Positions 5,791 through 26,669 of a stretch of 64,000 nt of DNA are shown here, one piece after another. Position 1 is the first letter of the stretch, and each line of letters opens with the position of its first letter. Under the pieces are notes generated by a model, which was not told the DNA's origin, did not search any database, and was given only the letters and a program-made list of their open reading frames with translations. The position numbers and the translations under genes were made by a program. This DNA comes from a bacterium (GTDB lineage: Bacteria; Bacillota; Clostridia; Oscillospirales; Acutalibacteraceae), in NCBI GenBank assembly GCA_022774755.1, contig JALFLK010000029.1:1-64000 (forward strand), in the 5' to 3' direction.

Positions 5791-6000
5791 ATGGATATTG
5801 TAAAAGTTTTTGGCACCAACCTCAAGAAATATCGTACTGCTATGGGTTTATCTCAAGAGGCTTTTGCCGATAAATGCGGTATGCACCGAACATATATCAG
5901 CGCAATCGAATGTTATCGCAGAAGCATCTCTCTTGAAAACATTCAGCGTATTGCTGATGCACTTGGAATTGAAACATATAAACTATTTTTGGAGGATTGA
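5791..6000 (+). CDS. XRE/controller (C)-protein-like HTH regulator
   Basis: 69-aa HTH (SQEAFADKCGMHRTYISAIECYRRSISLENIQRIADAL) typical of R-M C proteins. Confidence 0.75.
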   Translation: MDIVKVFGTNLKKYRTAMGLSQEAFADKCGMHRTYISAIECYRRSISLENIQRIADALGIETYKLFLED

Positions 6001-6005
6001 ACATT

Positions 6006-6845
6006 ATGGAACACAGAGATAGAGCGACTGGTTGGCAACATGCCAAATTATCCGGTCATAAGAACGAAGATTTAGTCAAAAATCTGTTGGATGAAAATAT
6101 AGATTTTCAACGCAGCTTTCTTTGTAGGGTTAACAGAGCGAATGCAAGAATCACCGATACAAGCATCGGTGGTCTTCACGAAACCAATGTACCAAGCGTC
6201 AATGGTAGAAAAACCAAATCTAAAACTGACCTCAAGGTTTTTCTCGATACCAATGAAGTAATCAATGTGTCTATCAAGAAAAGCCTTGGTGGACAGGTCT
6301 ACTTTGTAAGGGCAGGTCTGTTTATTGATACATTCGAAAAACAGTTTGGTGTCAAGATCCCTGTCGATGTTCATCGAGCCATCAATCTGTTTTGGGCTGC
6401 TGCTGACGATGCCGTTTCCATTATTGAAGAATATGGTGACAGAAGCATCCCCAAAAACTATGATTTACAGTTGAGACATAAGAGCTTAAATGCTACTACC
6501 TTGAGAGCTTATGACGAGCATCTCTATGATGTATTGTTGAGCTGGTTTACCGACAATGCTTACGAACTTGCTAAACTTTCGTTTTCCATGGGTGCAGTTC
6601 GTGATCGCAGCGAGTGGTCTGATTTTGTCTGGTACATAAATCTTCTCGGTGAAAATGACACCGATAATATTTTCTTCATCGAGGATGTATGTAATGCTGT
6701 TCAAAAGGTTGCGCACGAAGAAACTTATTATGGAACTTCCTACGGCGGTACCACTATACAATTGCCATTTGGATTTGTTCAGTGGCATCAGGGACAGTTG
6801 CAATTCCATCATGACTACGATAAAATATGTGATTTACTAAAGTAA
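6006..6845 (+). CDS. Putative type II restriction endonuclease
   Basis: KSKTDLKVFLDTNEVINVSIKK PD-(D/E)xK-like pattern; adjacent to C protein and methyltransferases. Confidence 0.5.
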   Translation: MEHRDRATGWQHAKLSGHKNEDLVKNLLDENIDFQRSFLCRVNRANARITDTSIGGLHETNVPSVNGRKTKSKTDLKVFLDTNEVINVSIKKSLGGQVYFVRAGLFIDTFEKQFGVKIPVDVHRAINLFWAAADDAVSIIEEYGDRSIPKNYDLQLRHKSLNATTLRAYDEHLYDVLLSWFTDNAYELAKLSFSMGAVRDRSEWSDFVWYINLLGENDTDNIFFIEDVCNAVQKVAHEETYYGTSYGGTTIQLPFGFVQWHQGQLQFHHDYDKICDLLK

Positions 6846-6857
6846 GGAGGACAATTT

Positions 6858-7613
6858 ATGCCATTAGACAGGCGTTCTTATCGTCTTTTACTTGGATTTC
6901 CAAACAAAGAGAAGCTAAAGAAATACCTTAAATTTACCGACGAAATACCGCTCGATTGGGAGCGATTAAGAGGCTGCAATGAAAGAGTAAAGGCTATTTT
7001 TTCAAAAATCAACCCTGTAATACATGAAGATATCCAGGTAGACCTGACAGCATTCAATCAAAAAATCGACAATGTATTTGAAGAAATGTGTCGAAACGAG
7101 CTGTTCCAAAAACTAACTAACAATGGGCGAAACCCTGTTGATGTTTACTATAGTTGGTTAAGAGGATATGCTGTCTGTGAGTTCTTTTTTAAAGCCATTG
7201 CATATATTTTTGAAGTTCCAGAAGCGTCGGTAAATAGAATCGGCAAAGACGACTTCACAAGTGTAGAGGTTTTTAAAAGAACCTCTGATGCAGACCTGGA
7301 AATTGTAGTTAATGATTCATTACGATATAAATTGGAAGTGCAGTCTGGATATACTGGAGCCAACGACATAAAGCGAACAAAAATTGACAGAGCCATTAGT
7401 GTCAAGAAAACAGAGAATATTGATTCTTATTTAATACACTTTGATATATACAATGGTCAAGCAGCGCTCTACTGTACATCAAATATTCAAACGAAGAATA
7501 TATCATGGACGATAAAATTTGAAAATTCCGAGACAATCGAAATACCAGAAGCGGCATTTAAGTGGTCACTGGAAAACAAACCAGATAAATACCGTACATT
7601 AGTTTATAACTAA
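6858..7613 (+). CDS. Putative restriction-associated nuclease
   Basis: SDADLEIVVNDSLRYKLEVQSGY (D...ExQ pattern); same operon. Confidence 0.45.
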   Translation: MPLDRRSYRLLLGFPNKEKLKKYLKFTDEIPLDWERLRGCNERVKAIFSKINPVIHEDIQVDLTAFNQKIDNVFEEMCRNELFQKLTNNGRNPVDVYYSWLRGYAVCEFFFKAIAYIFEVPEASVNRIGKDDFTSVEVFKRTSDADLEIVVNDSLRYKLEVQSGYTGANDIKRTKIDRAISVKKTENIDSYLIHFDIYNGQAALYCTSNIQTKNISWTIKFENSETIEIPEAAFKWSLENKPDKYRTLVYN

Positions 7614-7633
7614 TCCTTACAAGACGCCACAGT

Positions 7634-8722
7634 TTATTCGGTGGTGTCTTGCTCTTTTAACGCCTCAATCATTTGTTTTGCAATGGCCACAGAAAGAAGC
7701 GGAGGAACAGCGTTTCCAATTTCAAGACGCTTCATACCGTCGGAGCCGTAGAATTTATAATCATCTGGGAAACTTTGCAGACGAGCACCCTCACGAATGG
7801 ACATTGCTCTGGAATCTCTGGGATGAATACATCTTGAAGAGGACGGACATGCAAAGTTTCTTGTAATTGTTGTTGACGGTTTATCCCACCAAAGTTTGGC
7901 ATATGTGTTTCCGTAACCACTTTTAGGGCGAATGTCTTCTGGTAAATCATCCTTAGACTGTCCGTCTTTTAACGCTTCCATAATTCTTATTAAATGTGCA
8001 CCATTTTTTGGAGCAGCGTGTTCTGCAACACTGGTAGCCCCAGCTGCCCGGACAAACTCCAAAAATTCATTATTAGCGGGAGCTTCGTAGTAATCCTTAG
8101 CTTGACCGCTTTTGAGAACAGGAAGATCACCAATGGCTTCTTTCAGAGTTACATAAGGTTTCAATCCTTCACCATGAGTAGGCTGTGGATATCGATAACG
8201 ATTGATGCCTTTAAATCCAACAAGAATCACTCGTTCTCTTTGTTGGGGCACTCCATAATCGACAGCATTTAAAACTTGGTGTTTTAGGGAGTATCCAAGT
8301 TCCTCAAATTCCCTTTGGATTTGCTTGAACAACTGTCCTTTGTCCATACTTAAAATGCCAACAACATTTTCAAAAACAAATGCACGAGGTTGAAGAATTT
8401 TGAGAATTCTTTTATACTGCATAAACAGGTTGGCTCTCTCATCCATTTGGCGTTTGCCCAGCGTTGAGTAAGATTGACAAGGTGGCCCACCAACAACAAT
8501 ATCAACCTTTTTTCCTTTCAGTGATTCCGTTAGAACCTCTTCGGTTAAACTATTGATATCGCAATTTAGCATTTCCACATCTGGATGGTTTAGTTTGTAT
8601 GCAATTGATATATCTTTTTCGATTTCATTTGCAGCCAAGATATTAAATTGAGGAAGTTTAGAAAAACCATAACTTAATCCGCCAACGCCTGCAAACAAAT
8701 CTATTATATTATATTGCTCCAT
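7634..8722 (-). CDS. DNA (cytosine-5) methyltransferase
   Basis: DLFAGVGGLSYGF, VGGPPCQSYSTLG, FENVVGIL, GNAVPP motifs. Confidence 0.95.
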   Translation of the reverse strand: MEQYNIIDLFAGVGGLSYGFSKLPQFNILAANEIEKDISIAYKLNHPDVEMLNCDINSLTEEVLTESLKGKKVDIVVGGPPCQSYSTLGKRQMDERANLFMQYKRILKILQPRAFVFENVVGILSMDKGQLFKQIQREFEELGYSLKHQVLNAVDYGVPQQRERVILVGFKGINRYRYPQPTHGEGLKPYVTLKEAIGDLPVLKSGQAKDYYEAPANNEFLEFVRAAGATSVAEHAAPKNGAHLIRIMEALKDGQSKDDLPEDIRPKSGYGNTYAKLWWDKPSTTITRNFACPSSSRCIHPRDSRAMSIREGARLQSFPDDYKFYGSDGMKRLEIGNAVPPLLSVAIAKQMIEALKEQDTTE

Positions 8723-8732
8723 ATTTTTCTCC

Positions 8733-9680
8733 TTAAACTAGTGCTGACACAATATTTTTTGCTATTCTATCGACTACAGGAACACACACAGAATTGCCAA
8801 TTTGCTTATATACTTGTTTTTCGTTTTCTTTTGGCAAAACATAACTTTCGGGAAAGCCTTGAAGTCTTGCGCACTCACGGGGAGTCATAAGTCTTACAGA
8901 ATAATCATCATAAAAGAAAGGAATTCTTTCAAAGCGGCTTCCCATAGCAGCCAAAAGAGTAGGGCAAATTCCTTCCATACCTCTAGAAAGTCCCCAATCG
9001 GTAAATCGGTATACTCTTTTGCGATCATTCATATATTCCATCATTCGCTCCCACATACGATGACCATCCATATAGTACTTTTCATCTTGTTTTTCTTTAT
9101 CAAACAAATCAAAAGCTGTTTGAGTTAACGGGATCATATCTGGAAATTTAAATTTATTAAGGTGTTTCTTGTACTTAAAAGAAACAATGTAAATTCTATT
9201 CCTTTGTTGAGGAATATTTCCATATTCTTTCGCATTCATAACTTTATAAACGGTATAATATCCTAAATTCTCGAGTGTCTTGAGTATCACATCAAAGGTT
9301 TTTCCTTCATCATGTTTCACCAGATTGGCCACATTTTCAAGAAACACAACTTTTGGTTTAACTGCATTTATAACTCTGGCCGTTTCAAAAAACAAATTCC
9401 CTCTAGGGTCATTAAAGCCTTCCAGCAGTCCAACAGACGAAAACGCTTGGCAAGGGAAACCGGCTGTCAATATATCGAATTTAGGTATATTCTTTGTGTC
9501 TATCTTTTGTATATCTCCTTCAACAAGGTATTCATCTCCGAAATTTAATCTGTATGTCTTGCAAGCATACTTATCTATCTCATTTGCCCATACTAATTTA
9601 CATCCGTTTTTCTTAAAAGCTAAGCAGATTCCGCCGATTCCGGCGAACATACTGCCTGCTGTAATTTGTGTTTGCATCAT
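8733..9680 (-). CDS. DNA (cytosine-5) methyltransferase (second)
   Basis: SMFAGIGGICLAF, TAGFPCQAFSSVG, FLENVANLV, IGNSVCVPV motifs. Confidence 0.95.
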   Translation of the reverse strand: MMQTQITAGSMFAGIGGICLAFKKNGCKLVWANEIDKYACKTYRLNFGDEYLVEGDIQKIDTKNIPKFDILTAGFPCQAFSSVGLLEGFNDPRGNLFFETARVINAVKPKVVFLENVANLVKHDEGKTFDVILKTLENLGYYTVYKVMNAKEYGNIPQQRNRIYIVSFKYKKHLNKFKFPDMIPLTQTAFDLFDKEKQDEKYYMDGHRMWERMMEYMNDRKRVYRFTDWGLSRGMEGICPTLLAAMGSRFERIPFFYDDYSVRLMTPRECARLQGFPESYVLPKENEKQVYKQIGNSVCVPVVDRIAKNIVSALV

Positions 9681-15585: not shown

Positions 15586-15685
15586 ATTTATGAATAATTT
15601 TCAGATGTTGTCAAAATGTTGTCACGAGGACATTTCGCCTTCTAAAAACCCAGTATTTATGCGGGTTTACGGCGTTTTGACTACT

Positions 15686-15696
15686 ATTCCCACTCG
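15686..15696. repeat. att core ATTCCCACTCG (B/C junction)
   Basis: Identical 11-mer. Confidence 0.85.
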
Positions 15697-16051: not shown

Positions 16052-17215
16052 TTACATATTTGCTTTATCAATAAAATATTTAAGTTTATTTCTATCCCAA
16101 AGTATGACAAGGTTTTTTCTTGCTAATTCTTCAGCAGCAGGAGTAAAATAATTATTTGTAAGTACACAAGCAACGTGACAATCGTGCAGTGATTTGCTGG
16201 CAATTACCTCTTGAACAGCGGATACGCCAACAGAGGAATCGTAACGTTTACATTGAATAGCATATCGGACATCATCTTTTTCAGCTATCACGTCCGCCCC
16301 AAAATCACCCGAAGAAGGTGTGACGTTGATATTTATAAATCCATTTGAGCGAAGAAGATTTCCTGTGAAGATTTCAAAATCCCTTCCATCCATTATATCC
16401 ACTTCGTTTAGTTGAGGAATATCGCACGATTTTTCATATAATAATTCGTAGTCGATAACTTTAACTCCCTTTGACAATGCACGATTACGCAGCCTGATCA
16501 CTCTTGATTTTAGTACATTATTACTGACTTCGTCCTTGCATAATGCGTTCAAAACATTTTCTTCTGCTGTCAATCCGCTTTGTTGAAGAATATCAATTAT
16601 GATACTTCTGCGAGTATCAGGCTTATACGCGTTAAAATCAATTTCATAAAAACATTCTTCTTCCAACTCGTCAGGTAAATCCTGCTTGCTATTTATAAGG
16701 AAGAAACAAGTAAATGACGGTAAAGGAAGGTGATAACTCGCTGCCATCTGTCCTTTACCTGTAATAATGTCAATAGAATAATCGCTAACTGCTTGTATCA
16801 ATATATCCAATAGTTTTTGATTTATGAGTTGAATATCTGAAAAGATTACAATATCTCCTTCATTAATATATGTTAAAAGCGCAGCCAAATCACCTTCTTT
16901 TTCAATCAAAGCCGCAGATACAAAACGGGATTGAACATTTAACTCTTCGGCAATACTTGAAACAAATGGTACGACCAACCTTTGAGGACACCCAATCAAT
17001 ACACAGTTTGTCAGTTTCTGATTGGTTTTACCCACACGTTTTGCGTATTCAACATATTCATCTACTTTATTTTTCAGACTTAACGATAGTGTGGTGTCGT
17101 TTTTGGCTTTCGCAAACTTAGGAGCTGCCAAATTGAAAGCTATTTCCTTTTTATCATCGTTAAAGTAACCGTCCATATTTACCACCATATTATAAGTATC
17201 ACACATACGTTTCAA
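16052..17215 (-). CDS. Degenerate RuvB-like AAA+ domain fused to Mrr-type nuclease
   Basis: EKEGDLAALLTYINEGDIVIFSDIQLIN...DYSIDIITGKGQMAASYHLPLPSFT aligns by eye with RuvB; C-terminal SGDFGADVIAEKDDVRYAIQCKR Mrr catalytic motif; TTG start or ATG at 17206. Confidence 0.8.
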   Translation of the reverse strand: MKRMCDTYNMVVNMDGYFNDDKKEIAFNLAAPKFAKAKNDTTLSLSLKNKVDEYVEYAKRVGKTNQKLTNCVLIGCPQRLVVPFVSSIAEELNVQSRFVSAALIEKEGDLAALLTYINEGDIVIFSDIQLINQKLLDILIQAVSDYSIDIITGKGQMAASYHLPLPSFTCFFLINSKQDLPDELEEECFYEIDFNAYKPDTRRSIIIDILQQSGLTAEENVLNALCKDEVSNNVLKSRVIRLRNRALSKGVKVIDYELLYEKSCDIPQLNEVDIMDGRDFEIFTGNLLRSNGFININVTPSSGDFGADVIAEKDDVRYAIQCKRYDSSVGVSAVQEVIASKSLHDCHVACVLTNNYFTPAAEELARKNLVILWDRNKLKYFIDKANM

Positions 17216-17219
17216 TAAC

Positions 17220-18617
17220 TTATTTTATATTATTCATTAATTCTTTAAGTTTTGTCCTGTCCCAAAGCAATACAAGGTTTTTGTTAGCCAATTCCATCGC
17301 TGCGGGAGTAAAAATGTTATTTGTTAGAACGCAAGCAACGTGACAGTTATATATTGTTTTACTTGCTATTACTTCCTGAATTGCAGATATGCCAACAGGA
17401 GAACTATATTTTTTGCATTGTATAGCGTATTTTATTCCATCCTTAAACGCAATTACATCAGCGCCATAATCACCACTTGATTTTGTGACCGATATATTTG
17501 TAAAACCATTTTTCTGTAATAGTTCACCAGAAAACTTTTCAAATCCTGTACCAGTCATATTATTATCGATATCTTCAATGGAGAAGATATGCGCTTCATC
17601 AAATGTTTTATTAAAAATATGTTCCAAATCAACAGAATCGCCAACTTTTAATAAATCCGCTTTTATCCCTAACGAGAGATTTCTAAAAGAAAAGCGAGAA
17701 AAGAAATAAAAGATTATACCTGTTCTTTTAGAGTTTAGCAACAAGGGAATTAAAACTTCATCATTGTTTGAATTATTAAACAAATTATAAGATTCATTTA
17801 CAATAACAGCTATATAAGGCATTCTCTCAATATTATTAAAACCATTGACCATTCGATCATTATACGAATTTATATCTTTACAAGATGAATCTGCAAATAT
17901 AGCAAGTCGGCTCTTCATTTCATTTAACAGCCACGCAAAAGCACCATCTGCCTTTTTATTATCCGTTACTATTGGTATGAGTAACGACGGTATTCCACGA
18001 AACATAGAATAGCTTACACCATCATCAATAAGGAGTAGCTTTAGTCTGTTTGGAGAAGCATAAGTGACCATACGAGTGATAAATTGTGTTTGTATTGTAT
18101 CAGATGACTGGGGAAACACAAAATTATCGAGCTTATTCAAGAAATAACCGTTGTCAGAATAATCAACATCAATCCTAAAGTTATCTTTATAGATTTTTTC
18201 CACAGGTGGCATATTTGCTAATAGCTCCCTCAGCTCTGCCGTAAGTGAATTATCATCTTTTTTTGTGTGTGTATCAGGATTGTGTGATGATTCTTTATTT
18301 GAAACACAATTATTACGTCTTTTTACCCACTCATCATAGGTAATAATAACCTTTCTTGGTGTGCTTCCGTTATGAGGACCTACAACGCCTTGCTGTTCCA
18401 TTTCATCAAGCAACCTACCTGCTCTGGCGTATCCAACTTTTAGTTTTCTTTGTATGAGTGAAGTAGATGCTGTACCAGCTTCGATAACACATTTTACAGC
18501 TGAATCCATCATAGAATCTGTAATCTCTACATTATCATTTCTTATGACAGGCTCATTTATTATATCAAAAATTCTTTTTTCTATTTCATTATAATCATTG
18601 TTATTTCCCATATTCAC
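17220..18617 (-). CDS. FtsK-gamma domain + degenerate FtsK-like motor domain fused to Mrr-type nuclease
   Basis: GTASTSLIQRKLKVGYARAGRLLDEMEQQGVVGP (FtsK gamma); LKLLLIDDGVSYSMFRGIPSLLIPIVTDNKKADGAFAWLLNEMKSRLAIF...PYIAVIVNES (FtsK/SpoIIIE motor); SGDYGADVIAFKDGIKYAIQCKK (Mrr). Confidence 0.85.
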   Translation of the reverse strand: MNMGNNNDYNEIEKRIFDIINEPVIRNDNVEITDSMMDSAVKCVIEAGTASTSLIQRKLKVGYARAGRLLDEMEQQGVVGPHNGSTPRKVIITYDEWVKRRNNCVSNKESSHNPDTHTKKDDNSLTAELRELLANMPPVEKIYKDNFRIDVDYSDNGYFLNKLDNFVFPQSSDTIQTQFITRMVTYASPNRLKLLLIDDGVSYSMFRGIPSLLIPIVTDNKKADGAFAWLLNEMKSRLAIFADSSCKDINSYNDRMVNGFNNIERMPYIAVIVNESYNLFNNSNNDEVLIPLLLNSKRTGIIFYFFSRFSFRNLSLGIKADLLKVGDSVDLEHIFNKTFDEAHIFSIEDIDNNMTGTGFEKFSGELLQKNGFTNISVTKSSGDYGADVIAFKDGIKYAIQCKKYSSPVGISAIQEVIASKTIYNCHVACVLTNNIFTPAAMELANKNLVLLWDRTKLKELMNNIK

Positions 18618-18740
18618 AGCTCCAAGATTTGTTAAGAATATAGTATCATAATCTGCTTAGATTTGCAACAGGAAACGTATCCATTAGGCAAATAAACAAG
18701 CCGTCAAGTAGGAGATTGTCCCACTTGACGGCTGTGCTGA

Positions 18741-24120: not shown

Positions 24121-24960
24121 ATGTATCTATATGTAGCAGAAACAAAAAAAGATAATGATAACCATTTGACCGCTGAAATTATAGAGGAGATAACTCAAGA
24201 AGAATTAGATGATTTAAATTCTGCTTTTACCTTTTGCGGAATATATCATCGCATTAATCAAATAAAAGATATTGTAATTGAAAATGGTATCGAGTTTCAG
24301 CAGTATATGAAAAGCGATAATTTATCAAGTATGAGTTTTCAAGGAGTTTCTCCAGAAAAACTCATACTAATCGCAAATAAACTTGTATTTAATTACGCTT
24401 CATCTATAAAAACCTATATTGATATGGAAACTCGACTTCTTAGAAAAAACAAAGGTGAGAATGAACTGAAACTATTCCGTTCAATTTGCAGTCAAATGTA
24501 TGATAATAGCATTGAATATCGGTTTTGGGCTAATTTTAGAAACTACGTAGTACACTGCGAGTTTCCATATGCTGTATTTCACAATTCAATTGATGATGGG
24601 TGTAAAGTGATTTGCTTAAAGGATCACTTATTAAAATTTGATAATTGGAAGCATTCAAAAAATGATATTGAGAAGATGGACAATGAAATTGATATACCTT
24701 CATTAGTTAATAATATGAGTTCAAAGATTATTGTTTTATTTTGGGATTTCTTTACTTACTTTGGGCAAGAAATTGTTGATGGAATTGAAAAATATGGTTC
24801 TTTTTGTAGACGACATAACGTGAAAGCTCCTGCTATTATGAAATCCGAAGAAAAAGATCAATTAGAGAATATGAATATGCAACCACTTCCTGTACAAAAA
24901 CTTTTTGCATCATTTGAAGCATTAAAACAAAATCCTAATGTAAATATACATTATAAATAA
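24121..24960 (+). CDS. Hypothetical protein with HEPN-like RNxxxH motif
   Basis: FRNYVVHCEFPY; starts 5 nt after XRE stop. Confidence 0.55.
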   Translation: MYLYVAETKKDNDNHLTAEIIEEITQEELDDLNSAFTFCGIYHRINQIKDIVIENGIEFQQYMKSDNLSSMSFQGVSPEKLILIANKLVFNYASSIKTYIDMETRLLRKNKGENELKLFRSICSQMYDNSIEYRFWANFRNYVVHCEFPYAVFHNSIDDGCKVICLKDHLLKFDNWKHSKNDIEKMDNEIDIPSLVNNMSSKIIVLFWDFFTYFGQEIVDGIEKYGSFCRRHNVKAPAIMKSEEKDQLENMNMQPLPVQKLFASFEALKQNPNVNIHYK

Positions 24961-25115: not shown

Positions 25116-26669
25116 TTATTCCCACTCGACGGTGCCGGGGGGTTTAGAGGTTATGTCGTAAACTACTCTGTTTACATGCTCTACCTCATTTATAATACGA
25201 TTGGATACTCTACCTAAAATCTCGTATGGTATCTTTGCCCAATCCGCTGTCATAAAGTCGTCTGTTGTGACGGCACGAATTGCCACAAGCTCGTCGTATG
25301 TTCTTGAGTCGCCCATAACACCGACTGTCTTTACGCCGGGCAAAACTGCGAAAAACTGGCTCATTTTATCTTCGTAGCCACAGTTTTTCATCTCATCTCT
25401 CAGGACTGCATCCGCCTCCTGCAAGATTTTCACCTTTTCCTTGGTTATTTCGCCGATTATCCTTACTCCCAAGCCCGGTCCAGGAAAAGGCTGGCGCCAA
25501 ACAAGGTCGTGAGGAAGTCCAAGCATCTCACCTACCACTCTGACCTCGTCTTTGAACAGGTCTTTCAAAGGCTCGATTACACCCTCAAATTTTATATCAT
25601 CAGGGCGTTTTACCTGATTATGATGGGTCTTAATAACGGCGGCATCTCCTTTTCCGCTTTCGATTCTGTCAGGATAAATTGTACCCTGTGCAAAATATCC
25701 GCTGCCGTAATCCTCCCTGATTTTATCCCAAAACACTTTGTAAAATTCTTCGCCAATTACCTTACGCTTTGCTTCAGGCTCGGAGATGCCCTTGAGCTTG
25801 CTTAAAAATTCGTCACCGCAATTAACTCTGACGAAGTTCATATCAAAAAGCTTTGTAAAGGTTTCTTCTACAAAATCGCCCTCGTCTTTTCTCATAAGTC
25901 CCTGGTCAACGAAAACGCAGGTAAGCTGTTTGCCTACTGCTTTGCTGAGAAGTGCTGCTGCAACAGAGGAATCAACCCCTCCGGACAAGCCTAAAACTAC
26001 GCCCTTATCGCCTATCTCTGCTCTGAGCTCGCTGACGGTACGCTCAATAAAATCTTCCATTTTCCAGGAGCCTTTGCAGTTGCAGACATTATACAAAAAC
26101 GACCTTAGCATTTCCTTGCCGTTTTCGGTGTGATTTACCTCCGGGTGAAACTGTACACCGTACAGCTTTTTCTCGGGGCAGGACATTGCCGCAACAGGGC
26201 AAACATCGGTATGAGCAGTAACGGAAAACCCCTTAGGAGGCTCGCTGATGTAATCACGGTGACTCATCCAAGATATACCCCGGCTATCCAATCCGCTGAA
26301 CAGCACATCGTCGTTGTTATAGTAAGCCAAAGCCTTGCCGTATTCGCAGGAAGAATTATCCGCCGCCGCAGTAACCACTCCGTCAAGGGTATAAGCCATA
26401 AGCTGACAGCCGTAGCAAATGCCCAAAATCGGAATACCTAAGGAGAAAATCTCTTTGTCGATATGAGGGGATTTTTCGTCGTAAACGCTGTTGGGACCGC
26501 CTGTAAAAATCAGTCCCGACGGCGATAGCTCTCTGATTTTTTCGATACTTGTTGTGTAGGGCAATATTTCGCAGTACACGTTGCACTCACGAACCCGCCT
26601 TGCAATAAGCTGATTATACTGTCCGCCGAAATCAAGAACAATCACAAGCTCTTTCTCAACAGAATTCAT
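25116..26669 (-). CDS. guaA: GMP synthase (glutamine-hydrolysing)
   Basis: [25 protein letters not shown]-terminus [17 protein letters not shown]. Confidence 0.98.
25118..25128. repeat. att core ATTCCCACTCG (C/guaA junction)
   Basis: Overlaps the last codons of guaA (V-E-W-E-stop). Confidence 0.85.

Follow-up and report, generated by a model that had tools for sequence, protein, structure and literature searches.

The window, a stretch of 64,000 nucleotides from contig JALFLK010000029.1 of a bacterium of the Acutalibacteraceae, carries on its minus strand two genes whose products share an Mrr nuclease domain. In ORF1 this domain is fused to a RuvB that has lost its ATPase motifs, and in the upstream gene ORF2, which lies in the same operon and is separated from ORF1 by four bases, it is combined with parts of FtsK. 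The pair and the elements that delimit it are:

16052-17215, minus strand: ORF1, 387 amino acids, dead RuvB N-terminal and lid domains fused to an Mrr nuclease
17220..18617, minus strand: ORF2, 465 amino acids, FtsK gamma domain, dead FtsK motor and Mrr, upstream gene in the ORF1 operon
18699..18733, minus strand: terminator-like hairpin between the Mrr pair and the mobilisation genes upstream
15684..15696, plus strand: att-like core CTATTCCCACTCG, which repeats the 3' end of guaA and forms the far end of the element carrying the pair

ORF1 starts with a TTG codon, and an ATG is located three codons further in; the start codon of ORF2 is probably the ATG at 18611, which lies behind a GGAG ribosome site. 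The second copy of the att-like core at the 3' end of guaA (25116-25128) marks the opposite boundary of an integrative element, which encodes a tyrosine integrase, an excisionase-like protein, an AAA_25 protein and a Mob_Pre relaxase of the rolling-circle type, and whose carrier is a gut-type bacterium. Between 1289 and 25128 of the window, several related integrative mobilisable elements are arranged in tandem at the 3' end of guaA. Their genes code for an integrase, an excisionase-like protein, an HTH protein, AAA_25, Mob_Pre and a TnpV-like protein, and the cargo differs from slot to slot. The equivalent cargo slot of the neighbouring element (5997-9680) contains two C5 cytosine methyltransferase genes and two further genes without a match in Pfam or PADLOC, which perhaps encode the nucleases that match the methyltransferases in a restriction-modification system. 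The slot looks like a site at which defence cargo is exchanged. A protein of 279 amino acids encoded between the HTH regulator and guaA (24121-24960) likewise had no Pfam or PADLOC match.

The following segments can be distinguished in ORF1:

16598..17083, minus strand: residues 45-206, RuvB-like large ATPase domain (Pfam RuvB_N and structural model)
16967..16993, minus strand: residues 75-83, eroded Walker A motif, GCPQRLVVP in place of GPPGLGKTT of the host (alignment to host RuvB)
16871..16906, minus strand: residues 104-115 (IEKEGDLAALLT), in the region of predicted helix alpha3, the other retained element for RuvA contact
16718..16774, minus strand: residues 148-166 (IDIITGKGQMAASYHLPLP), presensor-1 beta-hairpin, identical to host RuvB
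16430..16621, minus strand: residues 199-262, RuvB middle (lid) domain (TIGR00635 match to residue 256 and model helices)
16067..16402, minus strand: residues 272-383, Mrr catalytic domain with E281, D304, D308, Q321, C322 and K323

The first-pass annotation had recognised a RuvB-like N-terminus by eye, and profile searches bear this out. Pfam RuvB_N matches residues 50-170 with an E-value of 3.6e-19 and 69.5 bits, which exceeds the curated cut-off of 27 bits, and apart from a weak AAA_5 match no other N-terminal family was detected in Pfam at E<=10. The NCBIfam RuvB models, among them TIGR00635, reach residue 256 at 64.5-70.1 bits, and the scores of a full-length RuvB equivalog are not attained (70.1 versus 282 and 64.5 versus 299 bits). 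All PDB sequence matches up to an E-value of 1e-10 are RuvB proteins (best 1.2e-16), and a Foldseek search with the predicted fold places RuvB structures first (7pbl, 8efv, 1ixs; E down to 1.4e-17). The AlphaFold model comprises the RuvB N-terminal and lid domains with block-mean pLDDT values mostly between 70 and 95 over residues 51-260; its input was an alignment with 25 RuvBs, whose rows steer the model and do not extend over the Mrr half. The gene for the host's own RuvB is located elsewhere in the genome, and its product is identical to the RuvB part of ORF1 at 57 of 157 positions. The best viral structural match to this part is BFVD A0A8S5VQM9 (E 5.3e-12), a protein of 684 amino acids, which is far longer than RuvB and is perhaps another RuvB fusion.

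The loss of the ATPase motifs, which had also been read by eye, was confirmed against the RuvB of the host. Besides Walker A, alignment to the host and E. coli proteins revealed that Walker B (FIDE to IFSD), sensor 1 (ATTR to LINS) and the arginine finger (PLRDRFG to ELEEECF) are replaced, and the sensor-2 segment GTPRIANR is likewise unconserved in the lid. Most positions that are invariant in RuvB across the phylum, e.g., those of Walker A and B, have changed in ORF1. The C-terminal DNA-binding winged helix of RuvB is missing as well, with Mrr_cat beginning at residue 274. The earlier description of a winged helix replaced by Mrr thus stands as far as the winged helix is concerned; however, the nuclease does not follow directly on the ATPase domain. 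Helices are predicted by AlphaFold at residues 199-212, 219-226, 232-249 and 256-260, so that the lid domain appears to be retained and Mrr appears to stand in for the winged-helix head only. ORF1 is derived from RuvB and shares its fold and hairpin, but is not a RuvB, as it lacks the catalytic motifs and the winged helix. It may nevertheless dock in the manner of RuvB. A mixed ring with host RuvB seems less probable, as neither the nucleotide site nor the trans-acting residues of the subunit interface remain.

The part of RuvB that has been kept is highly selective. Residues L135-L152 of E. coli RuvB (sequence from NC_000913) align exactly to I148-L165 of ORF1, and 18 of these 18 residues are those of host RuvB. 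The complete host-identical run spans 19 residues (148-166), a length that none of 100,000 shuffled versions of the identity pattern attained. It has been described that the presensor-1 beta-hairpin of RuvB interacts with RuvA (PMC2628435, PMC9477746) and that helix alpha3 contacts domain III of RuvA (PMC9477746). The third helix of the ATPase domain in the AlphaFold model of ORF1 comprises residues 107-115 within the IEKEGDLAALLT block and, by counting the model helices, would correspond to alpha3 of PMC9477746. When positions invariant in 29 RuvBs of the genus are considered, the hairpin keeps 18/18 versus 31/99 elsewhere in ORF1 (Fisher p 1.7e-8), the alpha3 element keeps 9/10, and both elements together keep 27/28 versus 22/89 in the rest (Fisher p 4e-12). 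We infer that the RuvB surfaces preserved in ORF1 are only those bound by domain III of RuvA, and that ORF1 docks there. The idea that lost catalysis combined with a kept fold reflects a structural or recognition role is thereby supported, and the retained part would be the RuvA-docking surface formed by alpha3 and the hairpin. The first-pass annotation overlooked the host-identical hairpin because an E. coli-type RuvB served as comparator; the sister gene with its dead FtsK motor and the retained lid domain escaped it too.

The hairpin of ORF1 has the form that is specific for the clade of its host, with 8/8 clade-specific residues kept. Within one bacterial family, this segment of RuvB ranges from PSARSIRLDL via QGAxSIHLPL to QMAASYHLPL (RuvB/RuvA loci L028-L127); ORF1 and the host possess the QMAASYHLPL type, and other genera the PSARSIRLDL type. 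Domain III of the adjoining RuvAs differs with the hairpin type (EVTP/DVTP versus EAS, a comparison uncorrected for ancestry), which suggests that the RuvB hairpin and RuvA domain III are matched surfaces. In comparison with 31 RuvB genes encoding the identical 19-mer, the hairpin DNA of ORF1 differs at 12-19 of 57 bases, and all of these differences are synonymous (pS about 0.9-1.5, i.e., saturated). Since synonymous sites are saturated without any amino-acid change, the comparison indicates that the hairpin peptide has long been under purifying selection and is not a recent copy. Recent gene conversion from host RuvB was rejected on the basis of the same saturation, and no donor was found among the 31 RuvBs with the identical peptide. 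The hairpin is also not simply the most conserved part of RuvB: it varies across the phylum, whereas the fully conserved motifs are those that were lost.

The nuclease half of ORF1 appears to be intact. Mrr_cat matches residues 274-380 (E 7.9e-28, 97.3 bits versus a cut-off of 21 in Pfam), and the motif residues are invariant or nearly so across 19 aligned Mrr domains, including the conserved D...QxK signature of D304, D308, Q321 and K323. The classical N-terminal winged helix of Mrr is missing, and RuvB_N is found at the N-terminus in its place. Judged by its sequence, ORF1 belongs to the Mrr catalytic family, in which its targeting domain is new, and a nuclease activity is predicted for it. 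The retention of all Mrr catalytic residues, together with the fact that Mrr is the part common to ORF1 and ORF2, argues against a purely dominant-negative role, in which ORF1 would compete with RuvB for RuvA or join its ring and dampen host recombination to protect the element, with the nuclease being secondary. A protein that keeps the RuvA-docking surface and lacks ATPase motifs fits such a role, and a mimic of this kind would block branch migration; however, the contacts for ring formation near the nucleotide site are lost, and we consider this explanation very unlikely.

ORF2 displays a comparable organisation, in which the following parts can be assigned:

18339..18521, minus strand: residues 33-93, FtsK gamma winged helix (FtsK_gamma, E 2.8e-26)
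18423..18449, minus strand: residues 57-65, RKLKVGYAR, KOPS/XerD surface, identical to host FtsK
17628..18170, minus strand: residues 150-330, FtsK motor without Walker A and with the Walker B Asp lost (FtsK_SpoIIIE, E 3.5e-13)
17235..17561, minus strand: Mrr catalytic domain, 61% identity with the ORF1 domain (Mrr_cat, E 8.5e-27)

The gamma domain of ORF2 superimposes on the KOPS-bound gamma domain 2ve9 with a TMt of 0.91 (Foldseek), and RKLKVGYAR is the equivalent of residues 1289-1297 of E. coli FtsK, a segment that suffices for the stimulation of XerCD recombination and coincides in part with the KOPS surface (PMC5052618). In the motor, Walker A is changed from GTTGSGKS to QSSDTIQT and Walker B from IDE to VNE. 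The FtsK_SpoIIIE match covers part of the domain, and the motor was also recovered by Foldseek (2ius, E 1.6e-7). The same structural searches returned the FtsK motor and KOPS-bound gamma domains for these parts and a resemblance of the predicted nuclease to MspJI and AspBHI. Positions invariant in FtsK are kept at 33/42 sites in gamma versus 41/124 in the motor (p 3e-7). The gamma domain may only be a DNA reader, as other proteins, such as a DeoR fusion, use gamma as a general winged helix. This fusion, a DeoR-type regulator with a C-terminal FtsK gamma domain, is found at L172 (G327:C1:710376-711563), and gamma serves as a mobile winged helix outside of FtsK.

The design of ORF2 is no one-off, and a wider gamma-Mrr and dead-FtsK-Mrr family was found in scans built on an alignment of ORF2 and its homologue L056 from a tailed phage. 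Long relatives occur in Acetatifactor, Hominisplanchenecus, other Lachnospiraceae, Clostridia and Erysipelotrichaceae and on viral contigs (L186-L190, L266-L268). The ORF2 architecture is common to L186-L188, L266 and L267; no gamma match was obtained in L189, L190 and L268, which are long and contain the dead motor and Mrr, and L056 has a divergent gamma-like stretch. At about 14 further loci, gamma and Mrr are combined in either order without a motor. Most family members have similarly degenerate motor motifs, and dN/dS values of 0.12-0.31 indicate that the dead FtsK motor is under purifying selection. Sequence comparison identifies the combination of gamma, dead FtsK and Mrr as a family that is conserved in Clostridia and Erysipelotrichaceae as well as in prophages. 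In L190 (5-4942), the dead-FtsK Mrr protein has a TM2 domain and adjoins a CD-NTase and a NucC effector, i.e., a CBASS locus; other members sit singly in prophages. An Mrr protein with two FtsK gamma domains is encoded at L245:3125-4858, and the same Mrr is joined to repeat-rich domains (BspA-like by eye) or TM2 membrane domains at L193:2447-4348, L058:5512-6354 and L016. The Mrr nuclease is a general effector that is combined with many targeting parts.

The ORF2 family also gave weak matches to Hjc (E about 0.08, below the cut-off) and to a RusA-like PHROG (E 3e-4). Together with the PD-(D/E)XK nature of Mrr, the action of both RuvB and FtsK in Holliday-junction or dimer resolution and the rolling-circle-type relaxase, these matches would fit a housekeeping function, in which each protein is a one-polypeptide stand-in for RuvAB-RecU or FtsK-XerCD and resolves the junctions or multimers of the element itself. 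However, Mrr enzymes introduce double-strand breaks and not symmetric nicks, the related elements next to this one have different cargo and no such pair, and relatives of ORF2 occur alone in prophages; a housekeeping function thus seems distinctly unlikely.

No second RuvB-Mrr fusion was found in draws of 300 genomes of the family, 100 of the genus, 394 of the order and 399 of the phylum, nor in scans of phage, plasmid, viral and genome contigs. The 13 viral RuvBs that were found all have Walker A (13/13), and a scan of viral contigs with the exact hairpin pattern yielded no close relatives of ORF1. A tandem Mrr pair at L272 was dismissed as a parallel: its N-termini are membrane or coiled-coil segments without RuvB. 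The literature search returned no paper on a RuvB-Mrr protein, and the combination of FtsK gamma with Mrr gave one unrelated match. A singleton architecture with only 57/157 residues identical to host RuvB might be regarded as an accidental, functionless fusion in decay. This interpretation is already disfavoured and extremely improbable, considering the open frame of 387 codons, the intact Mrr motif, the saturation of synonymous sites in the hairpin without amino-acid changes and the dN/dS of the sister gene's family, which is well below 1.

We favour, with a probability of roughly 0.55, the reading that ORF1 is an Mrr endonuclease whose docking module is an ATPase-dead mimic of RuvB, and that the pair is conflict (defence) cargo of the integrative mobilisable element. 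The architecture, motif loss, selective surface retention, purifying selection, operon structure and mobile-element context were directly established. The hairpin and alpha3 of ORF1 would bind domain III of host RuvA, and RuvA tetramers, which offer four domains III on Holliday junctions or reversed forks, would gather several copies of ORF1. The gathered Mrr domains would then pair and cut the DNA arms at the junction. The activity of E. coli Mrr depends on its oligomeric state, with the dimer being the active form (PMC12707154); therefore, gathering on RuvA could activate ORF1. ORF2 would be a parallel device, whose gamma head binds KOPS-like motifs or XerD and whose dead motor is a spacer or a second contact. 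The pair would be aimed at DNA where the recombination or segregation machinery assembles, e.g., the branched DNA of replicating phages or plasmids. The steps that we infer are the binding to RuvA, the activity of the nuclease, its local dimerisation, the nature of the target and defence as the outcome. The selective retention, the host-clade hairpin, its saturated synonymous sites, the intact Mrr motif and the same logic in ORF2 speak for RuvA docking, as do the dN/dS of the ORF2 family, the CBASS neighbour of L190 and the methyltransferases in the cargo slot of the sister element. Against it, the RuvB-Mrr fusion is a singleton, and a nuclease tethered to host RuvA would damage the host unless it were gated; no gate or antidote gene for ORF1 is visible.

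The retention of recognition surfaces and the loss of catalysis in both genes, as well as the location of ORF2 family members in prophages and defence islands, could also be explained by an integrated decoy, in which the dead RuvB and FtsK parts bait invader proteins that bind these host surfaces and binding releases or pairs Mrr. A bait, however, would be expected to preserve RuvB surface beyond the patch for RuvA, and the literature search yielded no invader protein directed at the RuvB hairpin, which makes the decoy unlikely. Returning to docking, it is tentatively proposed, at somewhat less than even odds, that the pair represents a class of mobile-element conflict systems in which Mrr is steered by ATPase-dead mimics of host motors, RuvB leading to RuvA at Holliday junctions and FtsK to KOPS/XerD, so that cutting would be determined by the bound machinery and not by sequence or methylation. 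If this is true, the targeting principle is absent from the literature searched, and a DNA structure would be recognised second-hand via the docking patch of a motor. ORF1 would offer a natural means of probing junctions occupied by RuvA, the decision over binding by one hairpin of 18 residues would be a clean and testable prediction, and RuvA and FtsK/XerD would join the host machines exploited in phage-host conflict.

Compared with RuvB itself, ORF1 has the N-terminal and lid domains, the fold, alpha3 and the presensor-1 hairpin in the exact form of the host clade, but lacks the ATPase motifs and the C-terminal winged helix, is fused to a nuclease and scores below the equivalog cut-off. With EcoKMrr and other type IV enzymes of the Mrr family (PMC12707154), it shares the C-terminal Mrr_cat domain, the PD-QxK type site and the presence of an N-terminal targeting domain; however, targeting is assigned to a dead RuvB, or to gamma and a dead FtsK, instead of a small winged-helix or SRA domain. 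ORF2 resembles FtsK/SpoIIIE in its gamma domain, including the KOPS/XerD surface, and in the fold of part of the motor, whereas the order is inverted (gamma before motor), Walker A is gone, a membrane domain is missing and Mrr is appended. PADLOC PDC-S02 and ZorD match the Mrr domain (E 5.2e-10 and 5.5e-17), but the match is confined to the nuclease, and no helicase or Zorya partners are present at the ORF1 locus. The closest concept is provided by the HerA/FtsK capture systems, in which, as in DndH, captured DNA motors are joined to nucleases in conflict systems (PMC10853773). RuvB is not described among them in PMC10853773. Inactive helicase domains in these systems and in DndH are thought to bind replication intermediates, and the captured motors are regarded as working pumps (PMC10853773). 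In contrast, the motors of ORF1 and ORF2 are dead, have no Walker A and retain putative docking surfaces only.
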